DNA of 64,000 nucleotides. It comes from Peptococcaceae bacterium. Its GTDB lineage: Bacteria; Bacillota; Peptococcia; Peptococcales; Peptococcaceae. The translations under genes and the position numbers were made by a program. The notes below the pieces were generated by a model. The model saw only the letters and a list, made by a program, of their open reading frames with translations. It was not told where the DNA came from and ran no database searches. Positions 6,721 through 21,259 of this stretch are shown piece after piece (position 1 is the stretch's first letter; each line of letters starts with the position of its first letter). Location of the stretch: the NCBI GenBank assembly GCA_017399005.1, contig JAFQEO010000035.1:248001-312000 (forward strand). The letters are read 5' to 3'.

Positions 6721-9700
6721 TTATTTTTCTGCTACCATCATCAGACCGGTGTCTTTTATTTCATATGTGACAGACTTCTTCTTTCCTGAAACAGGTGCAT
6801 ACTTTTTAAAATTTTCTGCTTGTTCCAGAACTTCTTTGTAAACATCATCGATGGTCACTGGTGGATAGCCAAATTCATCAAGCAAAAGTATTAAATCTAC
6901 TTGTAAATTCGCTTTAATATCTTCACGAGTAGACCAATCCGTATAACGAGATTTGTCATCCACAATCAATTTGATACGTTTTGATAATGCTATCATTTTA
7001 TCTTCCGGATATTCAAACTCATATTTTTTTGCTACTGCTTTCAGAATATCGTAAAAAGCTTTTTCTTCGTAATCAATGCCGATTTTTTTGAAGGATTCCC
7101 GTTCCTGTTTCAGTTCTTCTAAAAGATTAGCAAGCTGTTCCGCTACATCATCCAGAACTTCATTTGCAAAAGCCTCGTCGCGGCGTCGATTATTATATTC
7201 ATCCACAACACGCTTCATTCTTTCACTAAATTCCAGCCCCATAATTTTGTTAACTTTACGGAACTCCTCAATTGCCTGAGATAACAGCCTCTGCAGAATT
7301 TTAATTTTTGTATTCGGCAGCTGTATGGAATTAATTTTATCCAGATATTCATCACTAAAAATATCAACAGAAATATGTTTTCCTGTTTCAAATAATTCTT
7401 CAATGCCATCTGAAAGAATGGCACCTTCCAGCATTTCTCGTACACGAGCGTTCATTTGTGAAATATCCGGAGCCTCGCCTTTTGTAAGCTTAAACAGTAT
7501 AGAACGCACAGCACTATAGAAATAGATATAATCCTTATCTTCCTGTGTCAGTTTTTCGCTGGAAGTGCAAAGGTTAAATGCCTGTTTCATACGTTTTACC
7601 GCAGCCATAAAACGGGTTTCTAGTTCCTCTGTCAGCTGTACATATTCAACTGCTCGATTTAAACACGCAAGCTGTTCTGTAGGTGTACCATAAAAATAAT
7701 CATGGTCGTTGAAGTTATGGAACATCTGCCCCAATACTTCCAGCTGGTCTTTTACAATCACAACACTTTGTTCAACACCTTCGAACTCATCACTTTCGTA
7801 GTTCGTGTACTTTTTCAGTGCAAGATTCATATTTTTTTTAATACCGATATAATCAACAATCAGTCCTTTATCTTTTCCCGGACATACACGATTAACACGA
7901 GAAATGGTCTGAATCAGCGTATGCTGCTGAATCGGCTTGTCTATATAAATTGTATCCAGTTCCGGAACATCAAAGCCGGTCAGCCACATATCCACAACAA
8001 TAGCGATTTTAAAGTTTGATTTCGGATTTTTAAACTGTCTGTCCAGTTCTTTTCTGTCATCTTTTGTACCTAGCATATCAAATAATTCTTCATCATCATC
8101 TTTGTTGCGTGTCATAACAAGTTTAAGTTTTTCAACCGGTTTTAACTCTTTTTTGTCTTTCTCGGTCAGTTCTATGCCTTCGTCAGAGACTTTTTTCTCT
8201 GCCCATTCTGGCCGAAGTTCAATGATAATTTTATACAGATTATACGCAATGGTACGATTCATGCAAACAAACATAGCTTTGCCTGCAACTGTAGCCCCTT
8301 CCTGCACCCGTGTTTCATAATGACGAATAAAATCCTCCGCCACAGCACGAAGCCGGTCAGGGTCGCCAATAATAACTTCCATATTAGCAACGGCTTTCTG
8401 GCTTTCTTCAATCTGATGTTCATTGGCTCCAAGCCGTTCGCATTCCTCGTAGTATTTTTCAATCAGTTTTACTTTTTCCTGATCTAATACTACACGTGCC
8501 GCACGACCATCATAAACCAGATTTACCGTAATGCCATCACGTACCGATTCGGTCATGGTATATGCATCTACTACAGGACCAAACACATCAATAGTACCAT
8601 CAATTGGTGTACCGGTAAACCCTACATACGTAGCGTTTGGAAGAGAATCATGCAAATATTTGGCAAAACCATATTTGCGCTCTACACCTTTTTCCGTAAT
8701 ACGTACTTTTTGTTCCAGATTAATCTGGCTACGGTGCGCCTCGTCTGAAATACAGATTACATTGCTTCTATCGGTTAAAAGCTGAATATCCTCTGTAAAT
8801 TTCTGAATGGTTGTCAAATAAACACCGCCACTTTCTCTCCCTTGTAGTGCTTCACGCAGTTTTTCTCTAGATTCAATACTGATAATGGTTTCATCACCGA
8901 TATATTTTTTTGAAACAGTAAACTGTTTGGAAATCTGGTCATCCAGGTCTGTTCTATCTGTAATAATCAGAATGGTTGGAGAATGAAAATACGGGCTTTT
9001 CATCAGCATACGGGTTAAAAACAGCATCGTAAAACTTTTGCCGCAACCGGTAGCACCAAAATAAGTGCCGCCCTTTCCGTCGCCATTCGGTTTCATGTGA
9101 ACTTTAATATTCTCATACAATTTCTTTGCTGCAAAAAACTGAGGATACCGACACACAATTTTAATATCTTTGTCCGAGCTATCAGGAAAATATACAAAAT
9201 CTTTCATTACAGAAAGCAGTCGCTCTTTTTGGAAAAGACCTCTTACCATGGTAATAAGCGAATTGATCCCATCCACATCTTTATCATCCGCATTAATTTT
9301 ACGCCATGCATAAAAGAAATTATATGGGCTAAAGAAAGAACCATATTTATTATTTACACCATCACTGATAACAATAAAAGCATTATATTTAAACAGCTCT
9401 GGAATATCTCTGCGATACCGCACTGTTAACTGCTTGTACGCATCCATGATAGTGGTATTTTCTTTTACAGCACTCTTAAATTCCAGCACTACTACTGGAA
9501 GCCCGTTTATGAACACAATCCCATCTGGAATCCGAACCTGCTTATTCATGCCTTCAATTTCAAACTGGTTTACGATTTTGAAAATATTATTATCCGGATT
9601 ATCAAAATCAACCAGTTCAATATAAATATCCTTCTGGCTTCTGTCCTCACGGTTCAAAATAAAACCATCACAAAACAACTTATAAAAAGCTCTGTTCGCC

Positions 9701-9930
9701 TCGTACAATGTTCCGGAAATATTCCGCAGCATAAGCAGAATCCCATCCACCTCATTCGGTGTAATACCATCCTTTGCATAACGATTATAAAGATACTGCC
9801 TCAAATCATCCGTTAATAATATTTCCGTTCTCTCGCGATGTATCTGCCAGCCGCTTAAATGCGTATATCCTTCTTCTTTGAATAAGTCCATGATAGACAA
9901 TTCCAACGCATGTTCATTAAAATTTGTCAT
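6721..9930 (-). CDS. hsdR: Type I restriction enzyme R subunit
   Basis: This 1069-residue protein has the full HsdR architecture. A PD-(D/E)xK nuclease core lies near residue 150 (FINGLPVVVLEFK). The SF2 translocase follows, with Walker A GATGCGKS near residue 297, DEAH box (ISDEAHRSQ) near 397, FTGTP near 440, and motif VI-like SRVNRV near 685. A helical C-terminal domain binds HsdM/S. The start at 9930 follows GAGAGGTG at proper spacing. Unusually, hsdR is separated from hsdM and hsdS by about 6 kb of other genes on the same strand. It cuts DNA lacking the methylation pattern set by HsdS, so shuffling of HsdS changes its targets. Confidence 0.96.
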   Translation of the reverse strand: MTNFNEHALELSIMDLFKEEGYTHLSGWQIHRERTEILLTDDLRQYLYNRYAKDGITPNEVDGILLMLRNISGTLYEANRAFYKLFCDGFILNREDRSQKDIYIELVDFDNPDNNIFKIVNQFEIEGMNKQVRIPDGIVFINGLPVVVLEFKSAVKENTTIMDAYKQLTVRYRRDIPELFKYNAFIVISDGVNNKYGSFFSPYNFFYAWRKINADDKDVDGINSLITMVRGLFQKERLLSVMKDFVYFPDSSDKDIKIVCRYPQFFAAKKLYENIKVHMKPNGDGKGGTYFGATGCGKSFTMLFLTRMLMKSPYFHSPTILIITDRTDLDDQISKQFTVSKKYIGDETIISIESREKLREALQGRESGGVYLTTIQKFTEDIQLLTDRSNVICISDEAHRSQINLEQKVRITEKGVERKYGFAKYLHDSLPNATYVGFTGTPIDGTIDVFGPVVDAYTMTESVRDGITVNLVYDGRAARVVLDQEKVKLIEKYYEECERLGANEHQIEESQKAVANMEVIIGDPDRLRAVAEDFIRHYETRVQEGATVAGKAMFVCMNRTIAYNLYKIIIELRPEWAEKKVSDEGIELTEKDKKELKPVEKLKLVMTRNKDDDEELFDMLGTKDDRKELDRQFKNPKSNFKIAIVVDMWLTGFDVPELDTIYIDKPIQQHTLIQTISRVNRVCPGKDKGLIVDYIGIKKNMNLALKKYTNYESDEFEGVEQSVVIVKDQLEVLGQMFHNFNDHDYFYGTPTEQLACLNRAVEYVQLTEELETRFMAAVKRMKQAFNLCTSSEKLTQEDKDYIYFYSAVRSILFKLTKGEAPDISQMNARVREMLEGAILSDGIEELFETGKHISVDIFSDEYLDKINSIQLPNTKIKILQRLLSQAIEEFRKVNKIMGLEFSERMKRVVDEYNNRRRDEAFANEVLDDVAEQLANLLEELKQERESFKKIGIDYEEKAFYDILKAVAKKYEFEYPEDKMIALSKRIKLIVDDKSRYTDWSTREDIKANLQVDLILLLDEFGYPPVTIDDVYKEVLEQAENFKKYAPVSGKKKSVTYEIKDTGLMMVAEK

Positions 9931-9958
9931 TGTGTTCACCTCTCATCTACGGATAATC

Positions 9959-10456
9959 TTATTTACAAATATCTTTTACCCTTACTATCTTCTTTATAAA
10001 TTTCCTATCCTCTACTAATATCTTTTTATATTTTTTCCCTTCAGTATCCTCAACAAAAGCTTTAATCATTGTATTTTCAGACGTATTTGTACCCTTGATA
10101 GCCTTTCGAAAATCATCAACATCATAATATTGTGAAGTCGTTCCACCCGGTGTCAAAACAACCTGACTATCAAATAAAGTATGTGAATTGATATAAACAT
10201 TGTTACCGCTCAAAAGAAACCCTATGTTTTTTATTTTAACATTTCGGTTTCCCACATTAGTCACTGTAATATGCAAACCTATTCTATTTATAGATATATA
10301 TGTCCCTGTGTTTACTAACAGTTTTTTCTTATACGGAAGTTTGGCAGTACGAATTGATACTCCTAATGCAATTATACTTACAAGCAATGTTAAAGCTGAT
10401 AATAAAAGTGAAGCAAATCCTTGATTTTCATTGCACCATAATATAAACTCTGTCAA
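9959..10456 (-). CDS. Membrane-anchored protein of unknown function (165 aa)
   Basis: A TTG start at 10456 follows AGGAGG at 7-nt spacing; a longer frame opening at a GTG (10483) has no ribosome-binding site. One transmembrane helix (LLLSALTLLVSIIALGVS) is followed by a basic stop-transfer segment and a cytoplasmic beta-rich domain (LHITVTNVGNRNVKIKNIGF). The pattern NVGNRNVKIKNIGF occurs in small membrane proteins found in phage and defence islands. It sits directly upstream of hsdR in the same orientation. Function unknown; the stretch is visibly AT-rich compared with the housekeeping genes. Confidence 0.65.
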   Translation of the reverse strand: MTEFILWCNENQGFASLLLSALTLLVSIIALGVSIRTAKLPYKKKLLVNTGTYISINRIGLHITVTNVGNRNVKIKNIGFLLSGNNVYINSHTLFDSQVVLTPGGTTSQYYDVDDFRKAIKGTNTSENTMIKAFVEDTEGKKYKKILVEDRKFIKKIVRVKDICK

Positions 10457-10506
10457 AGTTATTCCTCCTAAACAATTTTGCACGTTTAGAAAATTTTAGA
10501 TATCTT

Positions 10507-11679
10507 CTATCTTTCTTGTTCAAAACTCTTTGCTAATTGCTCACAAGCAAAGGCATTAAAATATTCTCCTTGCATTTCTAAATCATTTTGAATTTGTCCA
10601 ACTGATTCAAAATGATTCATGAAATTAATCAAAGCATTAAACAAAATTAAATCATCTGCATATATTCCAGAATATGATTTATACCAAGCCGGCTGCCATT
10701 CACAAATAATCCGATAGAGTTTTTTATATAACTGTAATTGCTTTTCATTTATCCGAAACCAATTAACATTCAAAATCTTTTTATTTATACCATCATCAAT
10801 AGATTGATAGCTTAAAGAATCACACAGGCCTTTCATCAACTTTGATAAAATACCTGCCATCATGTCAGCCATACGCAACCCTGCATATTCTTTAGAATCA
10901 GCTTCATCAGAATTATTTAACCCCATCGCAAGAGCAGTTTTTAGAGTTTTGCTTTTCTCCCCTTCTTCACCCTCTTTGTCGATAAGCAAAGTATAATCCT
11001 GTATATCTTTTTCATTCAAATATTTTTTAAACCCATCAAAAGACATCCGATATGACCAGGCAATTTCTACACTATCTGAAATTCGACTCAACACAAATAA
11101 AATTTGTTGAAATGCCTCTGTCTCTTTTTGTTTTAAATCCGGTTTACTTTTATTATATTCAATTCTGTCACGAAAAAACTTCTTCAATTCCTCTAAAAAA
11201 TTATCCGGTGATTCATAGAGACATTTTATAATTTCCTGTGGGCGATACAGGACAAGTGCTTTCGTAATAGAATACTTTATCGAGTTAGCATCAATAAGAA
11301 AGGTATTTTTGTATCCTTGGAAAAGTTGTAAAACAAGATATTCTATCTTGCTGGCAACAGAAAAATAAATATGAATATCTTCATCAAAAAGAGACAGAAA
11401 ATCATCAACAAACTGTGTATTTTGCCTGTTAAGAGAAGCAAATCCATACTTAAATTCGTTCTGCTTCAACACTTTACTTTTTATTTCACCATTACGGTCT
11501 TTTCTATCTGCATATTTAGCTTCAAAAGCAGCGTGTTTTTGCAAAATATCTTCGTTTTCAGATGGCCATCCTATAATCATAGTCACAAAATTATCATAAT
11601 AATTATCAGCACTTACCGTACTATAATTAATTATTCGACTATGTTCTGTCTCATCATAATAGAAGTTGTATTTTGACAT
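10507..11679 (-). CDS. DUF3800-like protein (RNase H-like fold), defence-associated
   Basis: The N terminus FYYDETEHSR is the DUF3800 hallmark, where an Asp-Glu pair belongs to the metal site of an RNase H-like fold. The central LLIDKEG and C-terminal LRMADMMAGILSKLMKG match the later acidic motifs (D...YxGLxxADxxAG). At 390 aa it is longer than the usual 230-280, with an insertion of charged helices. DUF3800 genes occur often in anti-phage islands. Here the gene lies within the restriction-modification operon. Nuclease activity is inferred, not shown. Confidence 0.7.
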   Translation of the reverse strand: MSKYNFYYDETEHSRIINYSTVSADNYYDNFVTMIIGWPSENEDILQKHAAFEAKYADRKDRNGEIKSKVLKQNEFKYGFASLNRQNTQFVDDFLSLFDEDIHIYFSVASKIEYLVLQLFQGYKNTFLIDANSIKYSITKALVLYRPQEIIKCLYESPDNFLEELKKFFRDRIEYNKSKPDLKQKETEAFQQILFVLSRISDSVEIAWSYRMSFDGFKKYLNEKDIQDYTLLIDKEGEEGEKSKTLKTALAMGLNNSDEADSKEYAGLRMADMMAGILSKLMKGLCDSLSYQSIDDGINKKILNVNWFRINEKQLQLYKKLYRIICEWQPAWYKSYSGIYADDLILFNALINFMNHFESVGQIQNDLEMQGEYFNAFACEQLAKSFEQER

Positions 11680-11709
11680 TTTATATCGCCTCTTTGATAA
11701 ATGACTATT

Positions 11710-11964
11710 TTAATAACCTATCCCGTTTAAAATATTATCAATTTCTTCAAATTCAGATGGAGTACTTGGATTCCAATCAGAAGCATTACAATGTCTACAA
11801 TACATAGCGCTTTTATCTCTCATGCGATGACAATATGGGCACTGCACAGAATCATCTTCATAATCTGTTTTTCTTGTTCTATGCGTACAGGAAGAACAAT
11901 AAATTGTTTCCCCTTCATCCCATAAAGTTTCCGGATCTTCATTTCCACAATTTGCACATCTCAT
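11710..11964 (-). CDS. Small zinc-ribbon protein
   Basis: This 84-aa protein carries three CxxC pairs in order: CANC (residues 3-6), CSSC (23-26), CPYC (41-44), plus a fourth CRHC (55-58), giving two zinc ribbons, with an acidic tail. AGGAGA lies upstream of the ATG. It is positioned between the ParB-like and DUF3800-like genes of the defence operon. Possibly a nucleic-acid or protein adaptor; exact role unknown. Confidence 0.75.
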   Translation of the reverse strand: MRCANCGNEDPETLWDEGETIYCSSCTHRTRKTDYEDDSVQCPYCHRMRDKSAMYCRHCNASDWNPSTPSEFEEIDNILNGIGY

Positions 11965-11996
11965 ATTTATTTTCTCCTAACTTTCATCGCAAAAAA

Positions 11997-12521
11997 TTAT
12001 ACTCTTATTACTTTCCAGATTGTATGGTGCTCCTGAACAGCTAATCCACTATCCAACATTCGCTTTAAGTATACCAATCTTCTATGTCCTTCTAATAAAT
12101 GATACGGTCTAAGATATTCATATTCTCCATCAGCATTGCTATTTTCTGTATCCAAAACAATTATTGGACGAGGCCAGGTGCCATTAGCAAGCATATAATC
12201 ACTTAGCATCGTGACTAAGGTTTTTTCACAAATTTCAGCATATCCTATACCAGCATCATAATAATTAGGCAAATCATAAATATCCCACACCATTTCAGAC
12301 GTTATCATTACTTCTGAAAATCTAAGTCTATCATAACCAATTTCCCATCTATCTTCGGAGGAAAATATCGAAAAATTTTCATAGACCCATTGTTCTAGTA
12401 CATCATCAGGAAAATGCGGAAGAAATGGCCTAGCTTTTTCTATAAATTCTTCAATCGCAAACCGTTTATCTTGTCGCGTAGGATCAATTGGAGATATTTC
12501 TAAAAATTTTTCTTTATCCAT
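11997..12521 (-). CDS. ParB/sulfiredoxin-like domain protein
   Basis: The C-terminal half has PIIVLDTEN...LRPYHLLEGHRRLVYLKRM, matching the ParB N-terminal (ParB/Srx) nucleotide-binding core with its E/D-G-H-R-R loop. The N-terminal half is helical and acidic. ParB/Srx domains hydrolyse CTP or act as DNases or ADP-ribosylating enzymes in mobile elements. No segregation partner (ParA) is nearby, so a defence or regulatory role is more likely. It lies immediately beyond the invertible hsdS cassette, so inversion events change what is upstream of it. Confidence 0.65.
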   Translation of the reverse strand: MDKEKFLEISPIDPTRQDKRFAIEEFIEKARPFLPHFPDDVLEQWVYENFSIFSSEDRWEIGYDRLRFSEVMITSEMVWDIYDLPNYYDAGIGYAEICEKTLVTMLSDYMLANGTWPRPIIVLDTENSNADGEYEYLRPYHLLEGHRRLVYLKRMLDSGLAVQEHHTIWKVIRV

Positions 12522-12544: not shown

Positions 12545-12558
12545 TAAATGATAATTTA
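12545..12558. repeat. hsdS recombination site A
   Basis: TAAATGATAATTTA, reverse complement of sites B and D and the same as site C. It marks the beginning of the inverted 3' hsdS cassette, where the N-D-N-L codons of the HsdS spacer fall. Confidence 0.85.
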
Positions 12559-13209
12559 CTGGCTCAAGCCCAAACATACTTTGGTTCTGTTTTTGCAGGC
12601 AAAGATACCGAAAACTCCTTGCCAGACAGCTGGAAGTTCGCCAAAGTCGGAGATTACTGCGTTGATAACATAGGCAATCTCTCAAAAAACGATGACTTTG
12701 ACACCATTCTATATCTGGATACGGGTAGCATCACGGATAACTATATCGTTGAATTACAAGAATTGAACTTGTCAACTGATGAAATTCCAAGCCGAGCAAA
12801 ACGAAAGGCGACGCACGGCGACATTGTTTATTCAACGGTTCGTCCCAATCTGCGACATTATGGGTTGCTGCAAAACCCGCCCGCTAATCTAATTGTTTCG
12901 ACAGGTTTTGCAGTTCTTCACAACAAAGGATTAGAAGTGTCAAATGACTTCTTGTTTATGTGCCTTACTACAGATTCCGTGTTAGAGTATCTGCAGGCAA
13001 TAGCCGAAAATAGCGTATCAACCTATCCTTCGCTTAATGTCTCAGACTTACTTAACGTGAAGATTATCGTGCCAGACGATAAAACTCTTACCAATATCAA
13101 TCGCTTTTTGACCTCAATCTTCTCGTCCATTTCCGAGAATAACAGGCAGATTAAGATGCTTACGAACAGTATGGGTACGCTGTTACCTAAACTGCTGTCA
13201 AGCCGCTAA
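12547..13209 (+). pseudogene. hsdS: Silent inverted hsdS 3'-half cassette (second target-recognition domain)
   Basis: From site A the frame reads NDNLLAQAQTYFGSVFAG...LPDSWKFAKVGDYC and runs open to SSR-stop inside site B. It has the look of the second HsdS target-recognition domain plus distal conserved helix (NRFLTSIFSSISENNRQIKMLTNSMGTLLPKLL). It has no start codon with a ribosome-binding site and lies on the opposite strand to the rest of the operon; a TTG at 12619 could start a shorter frame but lacks a ribosome-binding site. It is a storage cassette rather than a decayed gene: the frame is intact over 220 codons and would join the 5' halves upon inversion at sites A/B or A/D. Confidence 0.85.
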
Positions 13210-13713
13210 ATTATCATTTATCTGCTTCTTTAAGGCGATTCTATCCGTTACAGTTCTGTATGCCTGGACGATTTTTCTCTGTTCCTCGATAGAAGGGACT
13301 GGCAACTTCATCTTTGCAAATTCTTCCCAAGGCATACTACCACGGACTCCGCCAACTGCAATAAAAGCAGCTTCTCTGTCGAACTCAGGGCGCTTAAACC
13401 ACATATCCAAGTATTCAGGGAGAATAACATTTTCGTCTTTCACTCTAAAAATCGGATAAGCAGGCGACATAATTGCGACATCATATTCTTCTAATCGTGC
13501 CACCGGAATCTTGGAGTCTCGGCTCACCTGCATCAAACTGACTGCAAAATCATTTTTTCTAATGACTTTATACTTTGATAAATCTGTTCCATTAGTATTT
13601 GCAACAGACTTAATAAAGCACTTATCAATGCTGACACCAATCAGTTCAGAAACACTTTCATCAGTATTACGCTCATCAATTTTGTCAACGAGTTCTTCTA
13701 TGGTCTTGTACAT
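13198..13713 (-). CDS. hsdS: Partial HsdS (5' half, first target-recognition domain)
   Basis: The 171 residues align with the first half of the full HsdS at 15090-16244: ELIGVSIDK, GTDLSKYKVIR, LPEYLDMWFKRPEFDR, VPSIEEQRKIV and the shared ending ALKKQINDNL. It then stops after AA because site B joins it to the inverted cassette. It has its own ribosome-binding site (GAGGTG, 5-6 nt before the ATG) and follows the recombinase by 9 bp, so it is probably expressed as a half-subunit. Half HsdS proteins can dimerise, or it may await fusion with a 3' half by inversion. Confidence 0.88.
   Translation of the reverse strand: MYKTIEELVDKIDERNTDESVSELIGVSIDKCFIKSVANTNGTDLSKYKVIRKNDFAVSLMQVSRDSKIPVARLEEYDVAIMSPAYPIFRVKDENVILPEYLDMWFKRPEFDREAAFIAVGGVRGSMPWEEFAKMKLPVPSIEEQRKIVQAYRTVTDRIALKKQINDNLAA
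13207..13220. repeat. hsdS recombination site B
   Basis: TAAATTATCATTTA at the junction of the partial hsdS (minus) and the inverted cassette (plus). It shares 20 bp (AGCCGC plus core) with the complement of site C and a longer right arm (ATCTGCTTCTT) with site D. Confidence 0.88.
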
Positions 13714-13722
13714 TTTTTCACC

Positions 13723-14706
13723 TCAACCTATGTATTTTCTATGAGCGATCTTTACGTTGCTCTGCTTGACCATTGCATACTGCAAGGTCGTATCTATGCG
13801 TTTATGCCCCAATAGCTGTTGTAATTGTTCAATAGGCATTCCTTTATCTATCGCCATCGTGGCTAGCGTTCTTCTGAACTTGTGTGGATGTACTTTCGCT
13901 AAACCTAATTGCTCACCCATTGTCCGCAACCTAACCTCAATGCCACCAATACTCAGCCGATTGTGCGGAGCATTGAACGACACAAATAACGCAGGGTTAT
14001 CATCGTTTCTACTTTGCAAATAATTTTGCAAATGAATCTTTGTTCTGGCATCGAAATATACAATACGTTCTTTATTGCCTTTACCGAACACCACACACTC
14101 TCGCTCGTTGAAATTAATGTCTTCTCGATTGAGTAGCACCATTTCACCCACACGCATACCAGTGGAGGCTAGCATATCAATCATAGCCAAATCTCGAAGT
14201 TTTGTGCAGCTATCACGCATTAATTCCAGTGCTTCATCGGTGTATGTTTCTTTTACACAAGTACCTGTTTTTATTTTGTGTATTCTTCGCACAGGACTTT
14301 TTAAAATATAGTCCTCATCTTCCAACCATGAAAAAAAACTCGACAAAATCCTGCGGATATTATCAATGGTAACTTTACTGGAATTTTTTCGTGCCTGATA
14401 GCCGGTCAGATAGGTACGAATATCATCGGTTTCAATACACTTCACATCTTTTTGTAGCTCGTCCAACATGGCTGTAATTGTTGATTCATAATATTTCAAA
14501 GACTTTTCAGAACAGCCTTCGATTCGTTTTGCGGCAAGGAATAAACCCACAAAATTCTGTTCCAAGTTATTAGTTTCCTTATTTGTTTTCGTTACCTCAT
14601 AACCGAAAAACACGTACGTCATAACTTCCTGTAGTTTTTCAATCTGTGCATTATTCAAATGCGGCAACATTCCTTGCATAACATCTGTAATCAAACTCTG
14701 TTTCAT
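13723..14706 (-). CDS. Tyrosine recombinase, candidate hsdS invertase
   Basis: This 327-aa XerC/D-like integrase has a core-binding SAM-like domain at about residues 45-130 and a catalytic domain with Arg in STGMRVGE (about 184), HPHKFRRT (about 272), LLGHKR (about 295) and the nucleophile Tyr in LQYAMV (about 309). It lies within the hsdS region between the full and partial hsdS copies, the usual place for the recombinase that shuffles HsdS domains (as with CreX/PsrA-type systems). AAGGAGAT precedes the ATG. No phage attachment site or excision genes accompany it, which argues against a prophage integrase. Confidence 0.92.
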   Translation of the reverse strand: MKQSLITDVMQGMLPHLNNAQIEKLQEVMTYVFFGYEVTKTNKETNNLEQNFVGLFLAAKRIEGCSEKSLKYYESTITAMLDELQKDVKCIETDDIRTYLTGYQARKNSSKVTIDNIRRILSSFFSWLEDEDYILKSPVRRIHKIKTGTCVKETYTDEALELMRDSCTKLRDLAMIDMLASTGMRVGEMVLLNREDINFNERECVVFGKGNKERIVYFDARTKIHLQNYLQSRNDDNPALFVSFNAPHNRLSIGGIEVRLRTMGEQLGLAKVHPHKFRRTLATMAIDKGMPIEQLQQLLGHKRIDTTLQYAMVKQSNVKIAHRKYIG

Positions 14707-14741
14707 TGTCGTATCTCCTTTACTTTGATGAGAACGACAGA

Positions 14742-14783
14742 CAACGGCTGTTCTTTTTTATAAACTCCTGCCGTTGGTAGGAG
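14742..14783 (-). promoter_or_regulatory. Alternative hairpins in the recombinase leader
   Basis: Two mutually exclusive stems can form on the minus-strand transcript: CTCCT/AGGAG (14765-14769 with 14779-14783) and CAACGGC/GCCGTTG (14742-14748 with 14770-14776). They sit just before the ribosome-binding site of the recombinase and might modulate its expression. Inference only. Confidence 0.3.
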
Positions 14784-14790
14784 CGTCTTA

Positions 14791-15063
14791 CTATTTTTCT
14801 TTATTTCTATTTTTCCTGTTTTTAGCAGTTCTTATCTCATCCTCAGCTTCGGATAATCTTAAATCAAAATGCTTCTGCAAAAGACTGATTATTTCAGCAT
14901 CTTTCAAATTTGAATCTACCAATAAGTTCATCATTTTCAGCATACATAAATCAAAACCTTGGTAGAAACTATCGTCCAGATTTTCTACATATTGATTATC
15001 AAATTGGTTTGCAAAGTTTTTTGTAGCTGATTTTATAGTGCCAAGCACTTTCTCTTTATCCAT
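14791..15063 (-). CDS. Hypothetical 90-aa protein between hsdS and recombinase
   Basis: It begins MDKEKVLGTIKSATKNFANQF and ends in a very basic tail (AKNRKNRNKEK). It is helical with acidic patches and has no recognised family. GGAGGAG precedes the ATG. It starts 16 bp beyond site C, so it belongs to the fixed part that moves as a unit with the recombinase in A/D inversions. It could be an accessory or directionality factor for the recombinase; this is inferred from position only. Confidence 0.65.
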   Translation of the reverse strand: MDKEKVLGTIKSATKNFANQFDNQYVENLDDSFYQGFDLCMLKMMNLLVDSNLKDAEIISLLQKHFDLRLSEAEDEIRTAKNRKNRNKEK

Positions 15064-15078
15064 ACATCTCCTCCCTCG

Positions 15079-15092
15079 TAAATGATAATTTA
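15079..15092. repeat. hsdS recombination site C
   Basis: TAAATGATAATTTA overlapping the stop codon of the full hsdS. Its complement continues left into GAGCCGC, matching site B over 20 bp. Confidence 0.88.
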
Positions 15093-16244
15093 GCGGCTCG
15101 AAATCTGAGTTAGAAGTAATGATTTCAAGGACTCTAAATGTTGCATCTCGTATTGATTAGCTCTGATTGCAGAAAAAAGCGGTTCTACTTTTCCGTGAAA
15201 CTCATTCATTACTGTTTCATCCGGTAAAAGAATTGGGATTTGCACAAATAGTGTTTTGTTGACGTTAAGCGTTGTGCTACCGCCTGCACCAAGTTGTTTA
15301 AGATACTCAGTAAGTGTAGTCATCTTAATGTAAACATAGAAAGGACTAATATTCTTCTTGCATACGATAGAGTTAATCTGTTGATTGGTTTGGCTCGGCT
15401 CAGCGGTAAGACATACTAAACCAACCGAAGCGATACAACTAACGCAGATACTATTTTCAGGTAAAGTTTTGTTGGCTTGTGTTGCAACTCCTTTATCCGA
15501 TAAGAAGCGTTCAGTTGAAGTAGTATATACGCTGCCGTGCATATCAGGAATTGTGATGAACGGAACATTTCCACCGTAGTTGTCTGCATCCGCAGTTGGT
15601 GGGGTTTTCCCACACACTACTTCTTTTGCAATGTCATCAATTGTAACTTCTTGCCAAGACTCAAGTTGAGCTAAGTCAAAAGGTTCAAAATCAACGAAGT
15701 AGGACTTATAAATAGTGAGTGCTGTTGCTTCTAAATTATCATTTATCTGCTTCTTCAAAGCAATTCTATCTGTAATGGCCTTATATACCTTTACAATTTT
15801 TTTCTGTTCATCGATAGGTGGTATAGGTAATTCAACCATGCACAACTCATTCCAGTCAAAGATTTCGCGAACACTTCCGTGTGACTTATATCGTGCGTAT
15901 CTGTCAAACTCCGGTCTGCTGAACCAAAGCATCAGATATTCAGGGTCAAGTTCGTTCTTATTCACGACCTCGAAAACGGAATAGGAGCTTGAAATAATGC
16001 AATCCCCACCCTCAAGATAGGCGATAGATATTTTCTCGCCGTTTCTTGACGTTACGGGACCATATGCAAACTGTCCAGTTCGAACTACTTTATAGCTGGA
16101 CAGGTCTGTTCCAACGATATTAGCAATAGAAAGGATAAATTTCTTCTCAATACTTACACCTAACAAATTGGTAATTGCTAAATCTTTGTTTCTCATGTCT
16201 ACAAGTTGGATGTATTTTCCTAAAGTATCATAATTTGATTTCAT
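15090..16244 (-). CDS. hsdS: Type I restriction-modification specificity subunit, complete
   Basis: The start at 16244 (MKSNYDTLGKY) follows AAGGAGC and overlaps the end of hsdM by 17 bp. The first target-recognition domain is about residues 1-150, the central spacer ALKKQINDNLEATALTIYKSYF carries site D, the second domain runs to about 345, and the distal helix ends QISSR. HsdS binds the bipartite DNA target and holds two HsdM and two HsdR. This copy is the expressed one. Its 3' half is bracketed by sites D and C and so can be exchanged with the silent cassette. Confidence 0.95.
   Translation of the reverse strand: MKSNYDTLGKYIQLVDMRNKDLAITNLLGVSIEKKFILSIANIVGTDLSSYKVVRTGQFAYGPVTSRNGEKISIAYLEGGDCIISSSYSVFEVVNKNELDPEYLMLWFSRPEFDRYARYKSHGSVREIFDWNELCMVELPIPPIDEQKKIVKVYKAITDRIALKKQINDNLEATALTIYKSYFVDFEPFDLAQLESWQEVTIDDIAKEVVCGKTPPTADADNYGGNVPFITIPDMHGSVYTTSTERFLSDKGVATQANKTLPENSICVSCIASVGLVCLTAEPSQTNQQINSIVCKKNISPFYVYIKMTTLTEYLKQLGAGGSTTLNVNKTLFVQIPILLPDETVMNEFHGKVEPLFSAIRANQYEMQHLESLKSLLLTQISSR
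15732..15745. repeat. hsdS recombination site D
   Basis: TAAATTATCATTTA inside the full hsdS at the codons for N-D-N-L of the central spacer, the boundary between the two target-recognition halves. Confidence 0.88.
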
Positions 16245-17799
16245 AGCCCAGCTCCTTAAACACATTCAGTAAATCAGCTTTGGACTTTTCCTCTGCAATC
16301 AGCAATTCTTTTAATTCTGTCTGTAATGCTTTCATCTTTGTGTCAAAGTCAATATTTTCATCACGATTCACAAATTCAATATATCGGCTTGGCACAAGGG
16401 TGAAGCCTTTTTCTTTCACTTCGTCGAAAGAGGCAGAGTAACAAAGCTCAGGAACATTTTCGTACGTTTCTTCAAAACCTTCCTGCTGCCAGTTGTGATA
16501 AACAGTGGAAACTTTTGCTCTGTCTTCTTCGGTGAGTTCAATATATTTTTTCTCATACGGACTGCCCATCTGTCGTAAATCCATAAAGAGAATTTCTTTT
16601 TCTCTGTCACGGTAGCGTTTTAACTGTCCGTTACGTTCTACCGTGCGTGCTTTTTTATTCTTGTTCAGCACCCATAATGTAACGCTGATATCTGTAGTAT
16701 AAAACAGGTTTCTTGGCAGAATGATAATTGCCTCAACGAGATTATTTTCAATCAGCTGCTGTCTTATTTTCAGCTCTGTACCATCGTCTGATAATGCCCC
16801 ATTGGCAAGTAAGAACCCGGCTACCCCATTCTGAGATAATTTCGATACAATATTTAAAATCCATCCGTAGTTTGCATTACTGGTAGGCGGTACTTCATAA
16901 CCATTCCAGCGCGGGTCGTCAACTAATTCATTAGCTGCTCTCCACTCTTTCTGATTGAATGGAGGGTTCGCCATAATATAATCGGCTTTCAAGTCTTTAT
17001 GCTGGTCGTTAGTAAATGTATTGGCCGCCATTTCACCAAGGTTTGCTGCAATACCACGAATCGCTAAATTCATTTTTGCCAGTTTAAATGTTGTATTTGT
17101 ATATTCCTGCCCATAAATAGACACATTCTTTTTATTACCGCTATGTGCTTCTACGAATTTCATAGACTGCACAAACATACCACCCGAACCACAGCAAGGG
17201 TCATACAAAATCCCATCGTAAGGTTCTAGCATTTCAGCAATCAGGTTAACAATACATTTTGGTGTATAGAATTCGCCTTTTCCTTTCCCCTCTGCCAGCG
17301 CAAATTTACTCAGGAAATATTCATACACACGGCCAATGATATCATTTTCTTCATCATCTGTGTTGATTTTATTGATTTCATCCAGCAGGGAAGCCAGTTT
17401 TGCAGTATCAATATGCAGTCTGGAATAATAGTTGTCGGGTAAAGCACCTTTTAATACTGGATTATTTTTTTCAATGGTAAATAATGCTGTGTCGATTTTT
17501 AATGCAATATCATCCTGCTTTGCATTTTCAATAATATAGGACCAGCGGCTTTCTGCCGGTAAATAAAATACATTATCTTTTGTGTAAAATGCGGTTGTAT
17601 CCGCAAATTTTTCCCCGTAACTCTCTATAATTTTCTTGCGTTGTGCTTCAAACTTATCGCTCGCAAATTTCAGGAAAAATAAACTTAATACCACATGTTT
17701 ATATTCAGCCGGTTCAACAGAACCGCGAAGCTTGTCGGCACTTTTCCATAAAGCTTCTTCCATACTTATTTCTTTTTTTGGTTTTGCTGCTTTTGCCAT
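16228..17799 (-). CDS. hsdM: Type I restriction-modification DNA methyltransferase subunit
   Basis: This 523-aa protein has an N-terminal helical HsdM domain (residues 10-140), the SAM-binding motif DPCCGSGGMF near residue 203 and the catalytic NPPF near 278, the mark of N6-adenine methyltransferases. It modifies host DNA at the site chosen by HsdS and is required for restriction too. It is the first gene of the operon, with a sigma-70 promoter 63-91 bp upstream and AAGGAGAGG before the start. Confidence 0.96.
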   Translation of the reverse strand: MAKAAKPKKEISMEEALWKSADKLRGSVEPAEYKHVVLSLFFLKFASDKFEAQRKKIIESYGEKFADTTAFYTKDNVFYLPAESRWSYIIENAKQDDIALKIDTALFTIEKNNPVLKGALPDNYYSRLHIDTAKLASLLDEINKINTDDEENDIIGRVYEYFLSKFALAEGKGKGEFYTPKCIVNLIAEMLEPYDGILYDPCCGSGGMFVQSMKFVEAHSGNKKNVSIYGQEYTNTTFKLAKMNLAIRGIAANLGEMAANTFTNDQHKDLKADYIMANPPFNQKEWRAANELVDDPRWNGYEVPPTSNANYGWILNIVSKLSQNGVAGFLLANGALSDDGTELKIRQQLIENNLVEAIIILPRNLFYTTDISVTLWVLNKNKKARTVERNGQLKRYRDREKEILFMDLRQMGSPYEKKYIELTEEDRAKVSTVYHNWQQEGFEETYENVPELCYSASFDEVKEKGFTLVPSRYIEFVNRDENIDFDTKMKALQTELKELLIAEEKSKADLLNVFKELGYEIKL

Positions 17800-18511: not shown

Positions 18512-19417
18512 TTATTCAAAAATATTGGCTTCTATCAGCTGTTCCAGTGCAGATATTGCGGTATCATAGGAAACCGGCGTAAAAAGTAAAGAACGAGTTG
18601 TATTTTTATAATCCTCTTTATATGCTTCATTATCTATAATTTCTCGTAAAATTTTATTTACCGATACCCCATCTGCTGCCGATAAGCATGTTTTGTGCGG
18701 CTGGCGTTCTTCTCTTACTTCTTCGGCAAGGTCTTTGAGGTTTTGACCTGGGAATACAATTTCTAAAAGCCGGAAAATATCGTAGATATGTCTGGAATGT
18801 TCTATTACGGAACCATTCAGATAATAATTACATAGAGCAAAAACCTTATCTACCAGGGTGCGTTCTGCTGTCTGTACACGAATTTCAAAAGGCTCCATCT
18901 GATATTGTGCAATAAACCCGGTATAATCGTTTTCTGACAGGTAATCGTATATATAACTGGCTACAGGCATCAGTTGTGTTGGATAGGTGCGAAAAAAGAT
19001 TGTTGTTTCCACCTGTAAATGAGGTTTCAGATAATTTTCAGAAAATATGGATGAATAACTTACCAGATAGCAATTGTATTCTCTTCGGCTTCGTATTTCA
19101 TCTGGATTCGTTAACAGCATCTCCCGATGTTCAATGGCTGAAACAATGTTTTCTTTCAGTCGTTTTCGCTGAGACTCAGTAGGCTTTTCGTCAAAAAAAA
19201 TGGTAAGATCAATGTCTTCTGAAAAACGGTCTATAATGCGATAACATTTGGATAAGGATGTGCCGCCTTTAAAAATAATATCAGGCTGAAGTCTCACAAT
19301 TTCCTGTAAAAGCAGTGTTACATAATAATCTTTCTCAATAATGGCTGCATCAATTTGCAGATATTCCGATGTTTGTAATACAACCTGCTCAAATAATTCC
19401 CTGTTATGATGTAACAA
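18512..19417 (-). CDS. AbiEii/AbiGii-type nucleotidyltransferase toxin
   Basis: This 301-aa protein has FKGGTSLSKCYRIIDRFSEDIDLTIF near residue 50 in shortened form: the G-G-T-S and D-x-D of the nucleotidyltransferase active site of AbiEii (type IV toxin-antitoxin). Such enzymes add nucleotides to tRNA or other substrates and stop growth on phage infection. A TTG start at 19417 follows GCGAGG and lies inside the last codons of the partner gene (14-bp overlap), the usual arrangement. Confidence 0.9.
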   Translation of the reverse strand: MLHHNRELFEQVVLQTSEYLQIDAAIIEKDYYVTLLLQEIVRLQPDIIFKGGTSLSKCYRIIDRFSEDIDLTIFFDEKPTESQRKRLKENIVSAIEHREMLLTNPDEIRSRREYNCYLVSYSSIFSENYLKPHLQVETTIFFRTYPTQLMPVASYIYDYLSENDYTGFIAQYQMEPFEIRVQTAERTLVDKVFALCNYYLNGSVIEHSRHIYDIFRLLEIVFPGQNLKDLAEEVREERQPHKTCLSAADGVSVNKILREIIDNEAYKEDYKNTTRSLLFTPVSYDTAISALEQLIEANIFE

Positions 19418-20024
19418 GATAAATAACCTCGCTTTCTATCAGTGTTCGCATAGCTTTATCGGGAAAAACAGGTGCATAACGGGTAATGTCCTTGCGTGTC
19501 AGATTGTTCTCCTGAATATAGTTTCTTATAATCTCACGCCGTTCTTCATTAAAATAAGAGGCCGGCACCTGATTCATCAGTTCCAGAAAGCACAATACAG
19601 CGGCATTTTCTTTTGTAATACCGGTACGTGCTTTTCGCAGAAGCACTTTCTGACTGCCGATTTTTACTTCTCGCACAATAGAGGTTTCATTATTGGTATA
19701 TATTTCAACGGTATTTGCCATCTGGGTTGATAAGCCGGTCTGATTCAGAAGTTTCACCCCTGCATAATAGCCAATTATCTCTGAGCCATTATACAGATAT
19801 TTTTTCTCCATTACTTTGTACGGGTTCAGTTTTCCCGGCCCAAAAGGGGTCTGGCTTGGAATATAGTATACACCTTTTTCAAAACGGACCAGTTTTTCAT
19901 CCGCACACAGCTTTGCAAGTTCTTTTGCAATCCAGGGCTTTGAATAATTCTCGTAAGTAATCTCTGCTTTTATAATCGGCTCATTCTGTCCATACGTTTC
20001 CAGTAAAGCTTCGTATAAACCCAT
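19404..20024 (-). CDS. AbiEi-like antitoxin (DUF6088)
   Basis: This 206-aa protein has an N-terminal winged helix (residues 18-55, WIAKELAKLCADEKLVRFEKGVYYI) and a C-terminal AbiEi-type domain (IIGYYAGVKLLNQTGLSTQ, VEIYTNNE, KVLLRKAR). It acts as the repressor and antitoxin of AbiEii. AAAGGAGGG precedes the ATG, and a sigma-70 promoter lies 28-56 bp upstream. Confidence 0.87.
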   Translation of the reverse strand: MGLYEALLETYGQNEPIIKAEITYENYSKPWIAKELAKLCADEKLVRFEKGVYYIPSQTPFGPGKLNPYKVMEKKYLYNGSEIIGYYAGVKLLNQTGLSTQMANTVEIYTNNETSIVREVKIGSQKVLLRKARTGITKENAAVLCFLELMNQVPASYFNEERREIIRNYIQENNLTRKDITRYAPVFPDKAMRTLIESEVIYLVTS

Positions 20025-20617: not shown

Positions 20618-20655
20618 AGCCCTCTGCACATTCGTGTGCGGAGGGCTGCTTTTTT
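20618..20655. terminator. Terminator between the Rpn-tail-like gene and fic
   Basis: Stem AGCCCTC-TGCACA with TGTGCG-GAGGGCT, then CTTTTTT on the plus strand; it can also serve the convergent fic gene. Confidence 0.85.
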
Positions 20656-21259
20656 ACAGTTCTTCTGTTTTATACAGGGTATAGCCTTCATAATAATAGC
20701 TGTGGTCAATGCCTTTCATATACATTTCCCGGCTGTGAATATCATCGGTGAGCGCATTCTGTAATAGATGTTTGATTTCATAATCTTTCACCGGGCTTCG
20801 TTCCATAGCCAGCAGATAATCATCTTTATCCACTTTGCTCCAGTCTATCACTTTGTGCAGTTCTGCGCGGAGCATTACATCCAGCCAGATACGCATACTG
20901 CGTCCGTTTCCTTCACGGAATGGATGGGCAATGTTCATCTCGATATACTTTTCGATAATTTCATCAAAATTGCTCTGCGGCATATGGTCAATGCTGGCAA
21001 TGGCTGATTCCAGATACATAACGGATGCAAAACGGAAACTGCCTTTTGAAATATTCACCGTGCGCAGTTCACCGGCAAAATCATAAATTTCATCAAACAG
21101 ATATTTATGGATAGCCTGCAGCGAGCGGAATGTTCCAGCTTCCAGCTGACTTAACCGGTCGCTTTCAAACAGTTCTATTGCTTTTTTTTTGCTGATTTTT
21201 TCTTCGGCATGTGCCAGTTCTACAGAACTGCTAAGCCCCAGTCTGTTTTTCAGTACCAT
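20654..21259 (-). CDS. Fic domain AMP-transferase-like protein
   Basis: This 201-aa protein carries the Fic signature HPFREGNGRSMR near residue 111, complete with the catalytic His. The upstream helix contains FAGELRTVNISKGSFRFA, the usual flap region. Fic enzymes transfer AMP or related groups to target proteins. No inhibitory S/T-x-x-x-E-G/N motif was identified with certainty, and no separate VbhA-like antitoxin gene is adjacent. GGAGGTG precedes the ATG. It may be a self-contained growth regulator or a toxin whose antitoxin was lost. Confidence 0.9.
   Translation of the reverse strand: MVLKNRLGLSSSVELAHAEEKISKKKAIELFESDRLSQLEAGTFRSLQAIHKYLFDEIYDFAGELRTVNISKGSFRFASVMYLESAIASIDHMPQSNFDEIIEKYIEMNIAHPFREGNGRSMRIWLDVMLRAELHKVIDWSKVDKDDYLLAMERSPVKDYEIKHLLQNALTDDIHSREMYMKGIDHSYYYEGYTLYKTEEL

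Follow-up and report, generated by a model that had tools for sequence, protein, structure and literature searches.

How does a type I restriction-modification locus that holds two 5' halves and two 3' halves of its specificity gene, with a recombinase gene in their midst, come to carry one complete hsdS, and how many different HsdS proteins could it make? We have examined such a locus within a 64-kb stretch of DNA (‘the window’, to which all coordinates refer). Our reading, which we hold with high confidence, is that it represents a recombinase-driven, invertible hsdS switch of the SsuCC20p type known from Streptococcus suis, with four HsdS specificities at its disposal.

Architecture of the locus

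Following the minus strand, the first gene of the locus is hsdM (16228..17799, −), encoding a type I methyltransferase subunit of 523 amino acids (TIGR00497 hsdM; PADLOC MTase_I, E 2e-145). Directly downstream lies 5' half 1 of hsdS (15746..16244, −), comprising the first target recognition domain (TRD) and the start of the central helix, as assigned from sequence, the PADLOC Specificity_I model and the reading frame. After site D (14 bp; 15732..15745, +) comes 3' half X (15093..15731, −), the second TRD, which matches Pfam Methylase_S and the S subunit of PDB entry 1yf2 (E 2e-27); then site C (14 bp; 15079..15092, −), orf90 (14791..15063, −), a small protein with neither assigned function nor family match, and an XerA-like tyrosine recombinase of 327 amino acids (13723..14706, −; PF00589, E 2e-32; NF040815 above cutoff). 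Beyond the recombinase are 5' half 2 (13221..13713, −; PADLOC Specificity_I, E 1e-35), site B (14 bp; 13207..13220, +), 3' half Y (12559..13206, +; Pfam Methylase_S)—inverted, silent and without a proper start codon—and site A (14 bp; 12545..12558, −). Four accessory genes (9959..12521, −), encoding a 174-aa protein, an 84-aa zinc ribbon, a DUF3800 protein of 390 aa and a further 174-aa protein, then connect the switch to hsdR (6721..9939, −), the restriction subunit of 1072 amino acids (TIGR00348, E 2e-144; PADLOC REase_I, 1206 bits). With hsdR, hsdM and hsdS of type I families together in one locus (TIGR00348, TIGR00497, Methylase_S), this is a type I restriction-modification system.

In its current state (5'half1-X: X forward, Y reversed) the locus contains one complete hsdS and one truncated 5' half. 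The complete gene (16244-15090, minus strand) joins 5' half 1 to X and encodes an HsdS of 384 aa, its start being probably the ATG at 16244, with AAGGAG just before it; the two Methylase_S stretches within the 391-aa hsdS open reading frame correspond to two TRDs, and a PDB search finds the protein similar to the solved S subunits 1yf2, 3okg, 5ybb and 7bst. Both 5' halves have ribosome-binding sites, that of 5' half 2 being GAGGTG; the latter is at present a truncated reading frame of 171 aa (13198-13713). One other assembly of this genome (L007) is identical in sequence and in the same state.

Outside the switch proper, orf90 is absent from all of the relatives that we fetched and recurs only in L007, whilst DUF3800 is found in just six loci; on these grounds we rejected the idea that orf90 or the accessory genes have a conserved role. 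The DUF3800 gene (10507-11679) has a homologue, approximately 50% identical and in the same position, in Lactococcus plasmids and in the viral contig L094, which suggests, from sequence comparison, an accessory gene that travels with such hsd loci. Just upstream of hsdM, PADLOC identifies an AbiEi/AbiEii-type pair (18512-20024), and a Fic-like gene lies at 20654-21259; taken with the hsd locus, this looks like a small defence island.

The recombinase and its 14-bp sites

The original prediction had placed four identical 14-mers at the boundaries of the hsdS halves and an intact tyrosine recombinase between them, and both claims hold. By exact match every coordinate was right: TAAATTATCATTTA is found on the plus strand at 13207-13220 and 15732-15745, and on the minus strand at 12545-12558 and 15079-15092. 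The recombinase, in addition to its PF00589 match, contains the full R-K-H-R-H-Y catalytic set (R185, K209, H275, R278, H301 and Y310), six residues that are kept in 99-100% of 136 relatives, and it is similar to XerA and to an XerC-like protein of known structure (PDB 5hxy, 4a8e).

Exact copies of TAAATTATCATTTA number four in the whole 2.41 Mb genome, all of them at the locus, with a reversed-pattern control giving 0 copies in the same 2.41 Mb. Allowing up to 2 mismatches, the window contains 10 matches (a count that includes both strands of each near-palindromic site) against a mean of 1.46 and a maximum of 6 in dinucleotide shuffles. This is the single type of 14-bp repeat at the locus, and its copies bracket both 3' halves as inverted pairs. 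The sites are also part of the coding sequence: the first three bases of the 14-mer provide the TAA stop of both 3' halves (that of X in site C, that of Y in site B), and the same 14-mer read on the opposite strand encodes an I-N-D-N-L linker leading from 5' half to 3' half. In most relatives the stop codon is found 8 bp before the site, not inside it.

When the locus is rearranged at these sites in silico, all four 5'/3' combinations remain in frame and encode proteins of 382-387 aa: 5'half1-X (384 aa, the form present), 5'half2-Y (385), 5'half1-Y (387) and 5'half2-X (382). The up to four specificities foreseen in the original prediction, produced by recombinase-driven shuffling, are supported by the complete catalytic set, by the four joins and by inversions at homologous sites in relatives (see below). 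In each state the leftover 5' half is truncated to 171-177 aa; the truncated half of the window (13198-13713, 171 aa, own ribosome-binding site) stays open whatever the state. Half-size HsdS proteins are able to dimerise in some type I systems, and the truncated half might therefore add a further specificity.

Comparison of 87 loci gives a site consensus of TAAAT-N4-[GA]TTTA, to which the window's site conforms. Positions 6-10 vary between loci, with 13 variants seen, whereas copies within a locus agree closely; of the 27 within-locus mismatches in these 87 loci, 24 fall at positions 1 and 14 and 3 elsewhere. A centre that is shared within a locus and variable between loci is the expected signature of strand exchange across a common central overlap. 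One exception, L067, has ATTG at the centre of its site 3 and CTCG in sites 1 and 2; such unlike centres are possibly a natural lock on exchange between its two cassettes. The non-coding outer flanks of sites s2 and s4 are little conserved, at no more than 0.8 bit per base, for which reason a longer recombinase site was rejected, and the conservation of the inner flanks is explicable by hsdS coding. A literature search for further sites of this TAAAT-N4-[GA]TTTA family found no relevant report.

Comparison with known systems

In S. suis CC20 the locus has a known homologue, SsuCC20p, whose switching has been proven by experiment (Willemse 2016, PMC5198162; Roodsant 2023, PMC10790761). Both possess hsdM, hsdR and two hsdS units that together contain four TRDs, with a single Xer-type recombinase lying between the units; in both, the two 3' TRDs are bracketed by 14-bp inverted repeats (TAAATCATCATTTA in SsuCC20p, TAAATTATCATTTA in the window), assemblies contain one complete hsdS, and the hsdS downstream of the recombinase can be the active one. 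They differ in the centre of the site, in host lineage and in their accessory genes (two hypothetical proteins in SsuCC20p; DUF3800, the zinc ribbon and two unknowns in the window), and the window's switch is one predicted from sequence. The S. suis site, TAAATGATGATTTA, fits TAAAT-N4-[GA]TTTA and recurs at homologous loci of Lactococcus and Enterococcus; recombinases of loci with this S. suis-type site are 64% identical to that of the window over their full length. These loci—on Lactococcus cremoris plasmids pJM2A, pJM1A, pUCCL627F and pUC073A, and Enterococcus faecium plasmid pW142—share the layout with its single recombinase and have sites identical to those of SsuCC20p; the Lactococcus plasmids, like the window, also have a DUF3800 gene before hsdR. 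Their site centre differs from that of the window, and they are plasmid-borne.

Other recombinase-driven shufflers share some of these features. The hsd loci of Listeria monocytogenes CC8 and CC4 contain, as here, hsdM, hsdS, a tyrosine recombinase and a second hsdS, and form four alleles by inversion, but their second hsdS is in the opposite orientation (PMC4783014, PMC7662400), and CC8 uses two distinct pairs of inverted repeats, of 16 and 29 bp, for large inversions (2.3 and 3.3 kb) in which the recombinase is carried along. The original prediction cited SpnIII and the PsrA type as the known example; we rejected SpnIII/PsrA as the closest relative, the precise one being SsuCC20p (PMC10790761). 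In SpnIII/cod, with PsrA (CreX), a tyrosine recombinase likewise shuffles hsdS through short inverted repeats; these, however, are three different pairs (15, 85 and ~300 bp), the donor genes are silent, and activity is confined to the hsdS after hsdM, whereas the window has just the one 14-bp repeat type and ribosome-binding sites before both 5' halves. The SpnIV/tvr locus, with TvrR, resembles the window in shuffling TRDs around the recombinase gene, but does so by direct repeats and circular intermediates and has a toxin-antitoxin-like regulator pair (PMC6265443). Assignment to the tvr/TvrR type was rejected: the window's sites are inverted within each cassette and orf90 has no family match. 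A REBASE survey of hsdS systems with inverted repeats considered only repeats of 20 bp or more (PMC7394358), a threshold that made it blind to 14-bp repeats.

Relatives and their natural rearrangements

A scan of one genome per species gave at least 584 candidate stretches, of which at least 572 code for proteins related to the recombinase. The 80 best were retrieved, and further loci from viral contigs, whole-genome searches and plasmids brought the number of relatives fetched to some 130. Huang et al. 2020 (NAR) reportedly surveyed hsdS invertons and may include relatives of this locus. The four-site layout (−, +, recombinase, −, +) is present in at least 87 of the fetched loci, and a de novo repeat search of the first set recovered the same orientation pattern in most. 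In sampled genomes, the system was found in 21/393 Clostridia (~5%), 6/398 from the window's phylum and 3/399 from the class of a Streptococcus locus.

Several relatives depart from the two-cassette form. L093, L011 and L068 are three-cassette variants, the first having two complete hsdS genes (and being left out of the state statistics) and the other two repeating part of the switch in identical tandem copies. In L048 and L076, 3.2-kb contigs binned, possibly wrongly, as Gastranaerophilales/Cyanobacteria MAGs, the same switch is laid out differently, hsdM and the recombinase standing back to back. Each of these two short contigs has a site precisely at either end, and L026 stops 4 bp past one; a population in which the two orientations coexist would be expected to break assemblies in this way.

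Near-identical relatives are seen in different states, their breakpoints lying exactly at the homologous 14-bp sites. Between L053 (Massiliimalia massiliensis) and L054 (a MAG), cassette X is inverted precisely from site to site (878 bp, 99.77% identity); the two loci agree at 99.4-99.9% around and to the right of the switch and at 93.7% over 9 kb to its left, and their other cassette differs. The L. cremoris plasmids occupy three states: pJM2A and pUC073A are X+/Y−; pUCCL627F is Y+/X−, its two cassettes having changed both place and orientation relative to pJM2A, at 100% identity, with the recombinase not inverted; and pJM1A is X−/X+, X being inverted in place at 100% identity with a second X standing where Y would be. 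Both cassettes of this last locus (L152) are hence copies of the same 3' half, an outcome to be expected if two copies of the plasmid, each in a different state, had undergone exchange. In L020 versus L021, as in L053 versus L054, the right-hand cassette has been swapped for an unrelated one between near flanks of 98.6-99.9% identity, and this comparison suggests that strains exchange specificity cassettes, at the sites or close to them.

Exactly one complete hsdS

Relatives from dozens of genera nearly always obey one rule. Among 76 non-redundant two-cassette loci, with cassette orientation scored by open reading frame, 72 contain exactly one complete hsdS: the left cassette alone is forward in 40, the right alone in 32, neither in 3 and both in 1. 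Were the cassettes to flip independently, approximately 38 of the 76 would have none or both forward, where 4 are observed (Fisher p 7e-17). The recombinase is co-oriented with hsdM in 69/74 loci and inverted in 5/74. Mapped onto the recombinase tree, the states show no clustering (at least 27 changes, against a shuffled mean of 26.4), indicating that state changes fast and that relatedness is not the source of the pattern. In S. suis, Roodsant et al. reported the same rule for assemblies and long reads—no state with two complete hsdS genes or with none—offering no mechanism but speculating on a coordinated double recombination (PMC10790761); within one culture, long reads contained no molecules with two, with none, or with an inverted recombinase (PMC10790761).

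These figures bear on the route between states. The original prediction had envisaged single inversions between A/B, A/D, C/D or B/C, which is not how the states of natural loci present themselves. Exchange at A/B or C/D alone would leave two complete hsdS genes or none, as in 4/76 loci, and one confined to A/D or B/C would leave the recombinase inverted, as in 5/74; indeed, a single exchange between any two sites results in none or two complete hsdS, an inverted recombinase, or a deletion. The three paired exchanges, (14|23), (13|24) and (12|34), by comparison retain one complete hsdS and the orientation of the recombinase. We therefore favour paired exchanges as the route.

In the mechanism that we propose, the dedicated Xer-like recombinase would exchange strands between the four identical 14-bp sites bracketing cassettes X and Y, allowing X or Y to follow either 5' half (with TRD1 or TRD1') in frame, and the four joins would give four HsdS proteins and four methylation specificities. 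State would change mainly through paired exchanges at all four sites, which would keep exactly one complete hsdS and the orientation of the recombinase. We infer that the switch is active in the window's own strain; its dependence on the recombinase, and the correspondence of one methylome to each allele, are expectations carried over from the work on S. suis.

Discussion

The one-complete rule could stem from a concerted four-site exchange or from selection. Under selection, cassettes would flip singly and cells with none, two or a silenced hsdS would be outgrown; this is a plausible account that stops short of being probable. The four exceptions speak for it, L038 having two complete hsdS genes and L014, L081 and L143 none, yet all with full-length hsdM, hsdR and recombinase frames, so that such states are viable and single flips either occur or are tolerated; SsuCC20p alleles, moreover, differ in fitness (PMC10790761). 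Against this, inversion of the recombinase leaves one complete hsdS in place, and yet such loci are also rare (5/74), which calls for a second, separate selective reason and argues mildly against selection on hsdS alone; illegal molecules are missing even from the single-culture S. suis long reads; and loci with hsdR upstream of hsdM obey the rule too (7/8). That the family uses a concerted reaction, in which two strand exchanges are coupled and only four legal states can be reached, is a proposal we make tentatively. Its legal states would form a Klein four-group on the pairings 12|34, 13|24 and 14|23.

A route without inversion seems to us unlikely: that cassettes are swapped by excision of a circle, containing the recombinase and one cassette, through s1/s3 or s2/s4, followed by reintegration. 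These pairs are direct repeats in every four-site locus, such a swap leaves one cassette forward and one reversed, the pneumococcal tvr locus works in this way (PMC6265443), and two S. suis isolates lacking xerD, TRD2 and TRD3 fit a deletion product. Excision and reintegration alone, however, can yield neither the inverted-and-swapped state of pUCCL627F nor the in-place inversion of L053/L054, and was rejected as the sole mechanism, whilst circles that went back in at the wrong site would frequently leave the recombinase inverted.

It is highly improbable that the locus is instead locked, its sites and recombinase being remnants and 5'half1-X the only form in the organism: both records of this genome are in the same state, but decay would have broken some part of a set that retains four identical sites, all catalytic residues and both orphan halves intact and in frame. 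RecA-dependent homologous recombination between conserved hsdS regions, without the recombinase, can be given almost no credence despite some flanking similarity (100 bp at 77% between 13206 and 15731), given that 14 bp is too short for RecA, that relatives have rearranged with breakpoints at the 14-bp sites, that conservation is lacking in the non-coding flanks outside s2 and s4 and that deletion of the recombinase, which locks the SsuCC20p alleles, abolishes switching there (PMC10790761).

Returning to the recombinase-driven switch, a system characterised in one pathogen is here extended to a family present in ~5% of sampled Clostridia and on plasmids of Lactococcus and Enterococcus, and the one-complete rule, known from S. 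suis, is extended across Bacillota. How a single complete hsdS is maintained becomes a testable question through this family-wide pattern of states, with plasmids of harmless Lactococcus already available in three of them; if the concerted reaction is true, this would be a tyrosine-recombinase switch with mutual exclusion built in. Many gut bacteria would, by means of a defined DNA switch, be able to change their methylome and, with it, their barrier to phages and plasmids.
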